Assembly: GCA_003214235.1 (NCBI GenBank)
Contig: QCLW01000012.1
Location: 1-34,935 of the forward strand
DNA from: Prochlorococcus sp. AG-418-F16
GTDB lineage: Bacteria > Cyanobacteriota > Cyanobacteriia > PCC-6307 > Cyanobiaceae
Direction: 5' to 3'
Length of the DNA: 34,935 nt
Of this stretch, positions 6,898-12,451 are shown one piece after another (the stretch's first letter is position 1; each line of letters opens with the position of its first letter). Position numbers and translations under genes: made by a program. The notes under the pieces are model-generated. The model saw only the letters and a list, made by a program, of their open reading frames with translations, ran no database searches and was not told where the DNA came from.

Positions 6898-7113
6898 ATG
6901 GGAGAAGCAAAGAGAAGAAAAAATTTAGGAATTCCGCCTAGAGAAAGAACTGAAGATATAAATTTGCCACAACTCGATAAAAAAGCTATACAACAAAAAG
7001 TTAGGTCTACATTATATAAATATCCAATCATCCCTTTGCTTTTTTATGGAGCTGCAATATTGATCCTTATCGGAGGTTTATTTTATGCTTATAAATCCTT
7101 TATTATTGCCTAA
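6898..7113 (+). CDS. DUF2839 family membrane protein
   Basis: The product opens MGEAKRRKNLGIPPRE, the signature start of DUF2839, a small cyanobacterial family with one C-terminal transmembrane helix. Here the helix is about residues 47-67 (IIPLLFYGAAILILIGGLFYA). I take ATG 6898 as the start because the family begins at MGEAKRR; an upstream in-frame ATG (6871) would add an unlikely extension overlapping the previous gene. A second, frame-disrupted family member is at 9335-9534. Function unknown. Confidence 0.85.
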   Translation: MGEAKRRKNLGIPPRERTEDINLPQLDKKAIQQKVRSTLYKYPIIPLLFYGAAILILIGGLFYAYKSFIIA

Positions 7114-7467: not shown

Positions 7468-7599
7468 CTATTTTATTAGAATAAATAAAACTCCATAAAG
7501 AATAATAGAGGAAGAGGCAGCCATAAAAACCAATGGCAATATCATTCCTGAGTTCAACCATCTTAAAAATCTTATTTTTTTGTTAATTACTCTTGGCAT
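7468..7599 (-). CDS. Small single-helix membrane protein, 43 residues
   Basis: On the minus strand ATG at 7599 opens MPRVINKKIRFLRWLNSGM followed by one hydrophobic helix (ILPLVFMAASSSIILYGVLFIL) and a terminal Lys. The basic N-terminus and clean helix give an N-in topology. It converges with the 44-residue gene at 7324 (stop codons 9 nt apart). No family name is known to me. Confidence 0.6.
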   Translation of the reverse strand: MPRVINKKIRFLRWLNSGMILPLVFMAASSSIILYGVLFILIK

Positions 7600-7810
7600 T
7601 GTTTTTTATCTATATTATTTGAAACTTAACAAGTAAATAAATCGTGTAAATGATTAATTAATCTTTATTCAATTTCTTTCCTTAGCAATTTTTAATATAA
7701 ATTTGTGTAAAAAAGTTTATTTTGATTTATTCCTAAATCTTTTAGGTAATTAATACCTTGAATTTTCTAAATATTTGAAGCAAGATTTATAAACATATGA
7801 TTTCCCAATA

Positions 7811-9334: not shown

Positions 9335-9534
9335 ATGGGCGAAGCTAAAAGAAGAGAAGAATTAGGATGGCCACCTAGACAAAAAAAGTTGAATTAAATA
9401 AATCTGATAGATACCTTTCATGGCTTCCAATTACTAAATCAAGAATTAAGAAATACCCTTATATGGGTGTGGCAACAATGGCACTAGTAGCGATAATTTT
9501 CTTAGTAAGTGGGGGCGCAAATAGTATTAATTAG
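9335..9534 (+). pseudogene. DUF2839 gene split by a -1 shift at an A AAA AAG heptamer (pseudogene or frameshifted gene)
   Basis: ATG 9335 opens MGEAKRREELGWPPRQKK, the DUF2839 start, but the frame ends at TAA 9395. The rest of the family, including the membrane helix (MGVATMALVAIIFLVSGG), continues in the -1 frame from GTT at 9388 to TAG 9532-9534. The junction is c-AAAAAAA-g with codons CAA AAA AAG, so the heptamer A AAA AAG is exactly in phase, the slippery sequence used by dnaX. AGGATGG lies about 10 nt upstream. Either a one-base deletion in an A run, or expression by ribosomal or transcriptional slippage. The intact paralogue is at 6898. Confidence 0.8.
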
Positions 9535-12139: not shown

Positions 12140-12451
12140 AAATTAAATTCCTCTTCGTCTCCTCCAAAAGGATTATATCTATTATCCCAAATTAGAACTA
12201 CTGCTATGGATAAGCAATAGATGTCTTACATAAGATTACTTTTGTGCAATCCACTCCCTCCCTATAGATAATCAAAGAAGTTATGCATTCAAAAAAGTTC
12301 CAATGCATCTGAATCTTTAATGTTTGCATAAATGTCTTTTTTTCATAATTAATTAACCACTTTGGAGCTTATCTAGCAATTACTTTTTAATAATTTCAAA
12401 TTCTAGGTAAAGTAAACCTATTAACCATTTTTAAAAAAAAAACTATTGAAT
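12140..12451. other. Gene-free gap
   Basis: About 310 bases with no supported gene. It contains an ATGCAT inverted pair around 12283-12310 and AT-rich sequence. A minus-strand frame reading LSIAVVLIWDNRYNPFGGDE exists at 12106-12231 but has a stop as codon 2 and overlaps the 12023 gene, so I did not call it. Confidence 0.4.

Follow-up and report, generated by a model that had tools for sequence, protein, structure and literature searches.

The gene for a small DUF2839-like membrane protein in Prochlorococcus sp. AG-418-F16 is interrupted by a change of reading frame at a run of adenines, and this is best explained by a recent loss-of-function allele of a dispensable gene, a reading to which we assign a probability of about 0.7. 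The gene lies in a stretch of 34,935 nucleotides of contig QCLW01000012.1 (the window), and a sequence-only reading had described it as either a programmed frameshift or a fresh pseudogene. Comparison with related genomes confirms the observation and supports the pseudogene, which is the most likely explanation, with an assembly error as the main rival; the programmed frameshift did not hold up, as the gene is uninterrupted in nearly all matched genomes of the genus and the lone similar case arose independently.

Structure of the interrupted gene

The features discussed below are as follows.

6898 to 7113, + strand: intact DUF2839-like paralogue, 71 amino acids from the methionine of MGEAKRR; 17.9 bits at a Pfam cut-off of 22
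9335 to 9397, + strand: zero-frame open reading frame of 20 codons plus TAA with the DUF2839-type N-terminal signature; truncated product
9364 to 9370, + strand: AGGATGG, proposed as a stimulatory Shine-Dalgarno sequence, within codons that stand for Leu-Gly-Leu in the family, the last of which encodes Trp only here
9381 to 9388, + strand: A-run (seven A, then G), the point of frame loss, holding the in-phase A_AAA_AAG
9388 to 9534, + strand: rest of the gene in the -1 frame with the membrane segment, ending at TAG; 48-amino-acid match at 9388 to 9531 without a stop

The ATG at position 9335 of the forward strand starts a zero-frame open reading frame of 20 codons, which encodes a DUF2839-type N-terminus (MGEAKRREELGWPPRQKKLN), runs ...AGA CAA AAA AAG TTG AAT TAA and terminates with the TAA at 9395 to 9397. 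The -1 frame stays open until the TAG at 9532 to 9534, and the membrane part is encoded up to 9531. Both parts join at CAA AAA AAG (C, seven A and G), where the A-run at 9381 to 9387 contains most of the in-phase heptamer A_AAA_AAG (9382 to 9388). The frame split of the window gene is thus real and located at the A-run. An hmmscan analysis of the two pieces (9335 to 9397 and 9385 to 9531) revealed that they match successive parts of the DUF2839 profile PF10999 (positions 1 to 9 and 17 to 51), which bears out the initial description of an N-terminal signature in one frame and a membrane part in the -1 frame, joined exactly at this site. The pieces score 13.8 and 16.5 bits, both under the 22-bit cut-off; an intact orthologue (G190) reaches 31.1 bits over profile positions 1 to 50, which is above the curated cut-off of 22. 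No PF10999 match was obtained in a family search of the whole genome of the window strain. A weak match to ABC2_membrane_5 was set aside, its score being under the cut-off of that family.

An intact paralogue (MGEAKRRKNLGIPPRERTEDINL...) is located at 6898 to 7113 (+), 2.2 kb upstream of the broken copy, and another DUF2839-like match is found on a different contig of the same genome (G000:C41:4580-4699). A literature search found no tested function for DUF2839; a passage in PMC3597751 reports that DUF2839 co-clusters with a photosystem I domain.

State of the gene in related genomes

The -1 part was used as a query against 266 genomes of the genus, including the window's own (E up to 0.001), and matched in 178 of them and in 72 of the 87 near-complete genomes. 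The 88 genomes without a match, which include 15 of the 87 that are at least 90% complete, pool absence, divergence and missing contigs. In the 178 matched genomes, the gene is uninterrupted in 167, broken in 9 and partly seen in 2. The 150 listed matches were examined at the DNA level, and 148 of them have one frame through the site (146 recognized by script; L108 and L179, which failed the start pattern, by tblastn); the two broken copies are those of the window and of G038 (Prochlorococcus sp. scB245a_519A13). The remaining 28 genomes were searched again and read by tblastn, which yielded 19 intact, 7 broken and 2 partial copies, although three of the 19 intact, weaker matches (G264, G258 and G024) share only about 55 to 57% identity with the orthologue and are possibly paralogues. 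Partial copies are present in G106, where only the last 28 residues matched, and in G222, where the gene is at a contig end. The seven decayed copies, L199 (G149), L213 (G105), L214 (G035), L215 (G217), L216 (G021), L221 (G093) and L223 (G031), carry stops or frame changes, and the gene has therefore been lost repeatedly; in G217 and G035, the region of the same A-run is itself altered in length or frame, in addition to other lesions. Alignment of orthologues had been suggested as a check for functional frameshifting: the split frame is not conserved among them.

With an intact orthologue as query, 131 of 151 genomes across the family gave a match, six of them from the same genus, and no stop inside the gene was found among the matches listed outside the genus. 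Since the latter are weak and mostly extend over the N-terminal two thirds, they probably represent the main DUF2839 copy and provide no close test of this site.

Origin of the frame break

The commonest forms of the site in relatives, CAAAAAAATGAATT, CAAAAAAAAGTTGAATT and CAAAAAAAAATTGAATT, are all in frame, and 134 of 148 copies have a longest A-run of 7 to 9 residues. It had been argued that an uninterrupted frame with eight A in all relatives would speak against frameshifting; the frame is indeed kept in almost all of them, but the number of A's differs between copies, and the most frequent of the in-frame forms consists of seven A and then TGAA. Across the genus, a three-base in-frame length difference at the A-run is widespread (CAAAAAAATGAATT versus CAAAAAAAAGTTGAATT).

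The window site (CAAAAAAAGTTGAATT) and the G038 site (CAAAAAAAATTGAATT) are each one base short of a common in-frame form, and G038 is the only other copy whose sole defect is the loss of one base at this A-run. A scan of genome contigs with one 31-base pattern for either frame-broken form, which demanded exact flanks and possibly excluded records of the window genome, returned a single record, JFNH01000118.1 (Prochlorococcus sp. scB245a_519A13), which is taken as the genome of G038; the same pattern found no frame-broken form in viral contigs. The window's sister, L042, has CGAAAAAAAGTTGAATT and is uninterrupted, with CGA AAA AAA GTT in the sister genome G016, and L039, the sister of G038, carries the full 9-A form, also uninterrupted. 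A tree of 28 of 30 loci requires that the frame was lost twice independently, and the two broken copies group together in 0% of 200 bootstrap replicates. Because the tree needs two events and the sister of each broken copy is intact, the sequences identify the break as recurrent mutation at a homopolymer and not as an inherited split. The base lost in the window may be an A or the G of the sister's CG, since the sister has CG where the window has C.

The ancestral gene would have read CAA AAA AAA GTT or a close variant, from which one base would have been lost at the A-run, with replication slippage at a poly-A hotspot as the simplest cause, as a result of which translation stops after 20 codons. 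We infer that the base change is present in the DNA of the cell and not in the assembly; polymerase slippage would be its cause, and the gene is presumably dispensable, its protein being absent or scarce.

For the analysis of private changes, 15 N-terminal codons (148 of 150 copies) and 42 C-terminal codons (142 of 150) were compared, and about 8 codons in between were omitted. Set against the intact orthologues, the disabling change is private to the window strain, the like change in G038 being separate. Besides the frame loss, two substitutions in the 57 compared codons are private to the window copy, and both are nonsynonymous: Leu12 has become Trp (1 of 148), and a Gly that 141 of 142 copies share is replaced by Val. 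No synonymous change is private to this copy; its one synonymous difference from the majority is found in 12 of 142 copies, including the window's. The two private changes fit a recent loss of constraint as supporting evidence only, and this support is weak because such changes are also frequent in intact neighbours: four intact neighbouring genes have 5 nonsynonymous and 4 synonymous private changes in the window. An intact downstream part had been considered unusual for a decayed gene; a recent loss accounts for it. The G038 copy has no private change in the compared codons, and its lesion is either very recent, an error or bypassed.

Signals for recoding

A dnaX-type slippery heptamer of the form X_XXY_YYZ is present in phase, but such a heptamer by itself means little. 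Counted on both strands, the window contains 57 copies of AAAAAAG, more than base composition alone predicts (100 shuffles gave a mean of 42.8 with an sd of 5.7 and a maximum of 55). In phase, A_AAA_AAG is found 4 times in the 32 window reading frames of at least 80 amino acids and 0 to 4 times in the regions of each of seven relatives. That the heptamer coincides with the frame break here is a consequence of the deletion, because removing one A from CAA AAA AAA G leaves CAA AAA AAG.

No downstream stimulatory fold was detected by a model that covers structures other than pseudoknots, with z values against shuffles of -0.06 (83 nt from the heptamer end) and -0.01 (47 nt from position 9394). 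The upstream AGGATGG had been likened to the stimulatory Shine-Dalgarno sequence of dnaX. AGGA is indeed present, but it lies within Leu-Gly codons, and most relatives have AGGATTG or AGGATTA, which encode Leu-Gly-Leu. Of 148 copies, 143 encode Leu as residue 12, three Ile and one Phe, and only the window has Trp; the TGG within AGGATGG is thus private to the window, and the stimulator-like appearance stems partly from a private substitution.

Alternative explanations

The new null allele is supported by the 167 intact copies in 178 matched genomes, a site that is one base short, an independent event in G038 and the absence of conserved stimulators. Two observations stand against it: beyond the break, the -1 frame remains open with hardly any change, and the deletion produced a heptamer known for -1 shifting in dnaX. 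Programmed -1 frameshifting that gives two products would make use of this heptamer, of the upstream AGGA-containing stretch and of a family sequence split over two frames. It was rejected, and we regard it as highly improbable, since it fails conservation within the genomes searched and folding is no better than in shuffles. In addition, a -1 slip in relatives with 8 A and GTT would hit TGA as the second codon, and the upstream AGGA belongs to protein-coding codons kept in relatives.

That the gene is really intact and a homopolymer in this partial genome was wrongly sequenced or assembled is unlikely, but it is the strongest of the alternatives. The genomes of both copies with a lone defect are partial drafts (that of the window has 1.17 Mb in 54 contigs and is 71.75% complete; that of G038 has about 220 contigs and is 67% complete), and the defect is one of A-run length. 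An indel-rich assembly was looked for in gap columns over 3.1 kb and in reading-frame clusters of eight genomes and was not seen. A 3.1-kb alignment of 17 hand-picked near-clade rows including the window contains no private gap column in the window, the frame gap itself being uncounted because other rows are gapped there, and the window's 20 private substitutions are fewer than those in 13 of the 16 other rows. Furthermore, the window has intact copies of 29 reading-frame clusters that four or more of 8 genomes share, and three further clusters are not intact there, namely the DUF2839-like gene, a 55-amino-acid frame at 12207 to 12342 and a 45-amino-acid frame matched over 33 amino acids at 7502 to 7600.

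A mutated DNA whose lesion is accidentally corrected, by ribosomal -1 slippage on A_AAA_AAG or by transcriptional slippage, so that enough protein is restored in an unprogrammed way, appears improbable, somewhat more so than the error. The site would allow it, with a zero-frame stop 6 bases past the in-phase heptamer and a long open -1 frame beyond, and the unchanged compared codons of the G038 copy agree with it. According to passages in PMC3812077, indels in an 8A repeat arise often in E. coli and can be bypassed, as was measured, and variants with an A deleted from the repeat showed activity at basal expression; the part of PMC5009743 that bears on this question describes corrected transcripts at long poly(A) runs of AT-rich endosymbionts. 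However, the window copy carries its two private substitutions, at Leu12 and at the conserved Gly, rescue appears needless as seven other relatives lost the gene by several defects, and known homo-A slippage hotspots usually comprise 10 or more residues according to PMC3812077, whereas the run here has seven. It is more doubtful still that the A-run serves in Prochlorococcus as an on/off switch operated by slippage or as a lesion that can be bypassed, with the protein lost and regained by one-base changes and, as long as the frame is broken, rescued at a low level by ribosomal or transcriptional slippage. Under the favoured null allele, some full-length protein may nevertheless be made as accidental leakiness, because the 8A-repeat indels described in PMC3812077 are bypassable in E. 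coli.

As a separate observation, the 55-amino-acid frame at 12207 to 12342 (-) is split over two frames in the window; it is found in 6 of 8 compared genomes, the window not among them, and in its alignment to G038 a gap of two bases adjoins a T-run and a gap of one base lies further along.

Comparison with known systems

A deletion can, as a side effect, create an attractive slippery site exactly where the frame breaks, and in AT-rich genomes such sites should be compared with orthologues before recoding is claimed. The gene resembles the small cyanobacterial DUF2839 (PF10999) proteins in its MGEAKRR...LGLPPR start and its membrane-like segment; with about 66 amino acids, it is a divergent relative of the better-scoring copy, whose open frames mostly have about 83 amino acids, and unlike those proteins the window copy is frame-broken. 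It shares the in-phase A_AAA_AAG with the programmed -1 site of dnaX, as this site is given in a passage of PMC5009743, but has neither its conservation nor a downstream stem, and its Shine-Dalgarno-like AGGA is part of protein-coding sequence. A literature search found no frameshift pseudogenes described in Prochlorococcus single-cell genomes. A further likeness is to the homopolymer indels with partial bypass that passages of PMC3812077 and PMC5009743 describe, with which the gene shares a one-base loss in an A-run of about 8 that is potentially bypassable; the bypass in the window gene is a potential read from the sequence, in contrast to those cases. The window gene is nothing new in kind but an ordinary gene break of an already known type.
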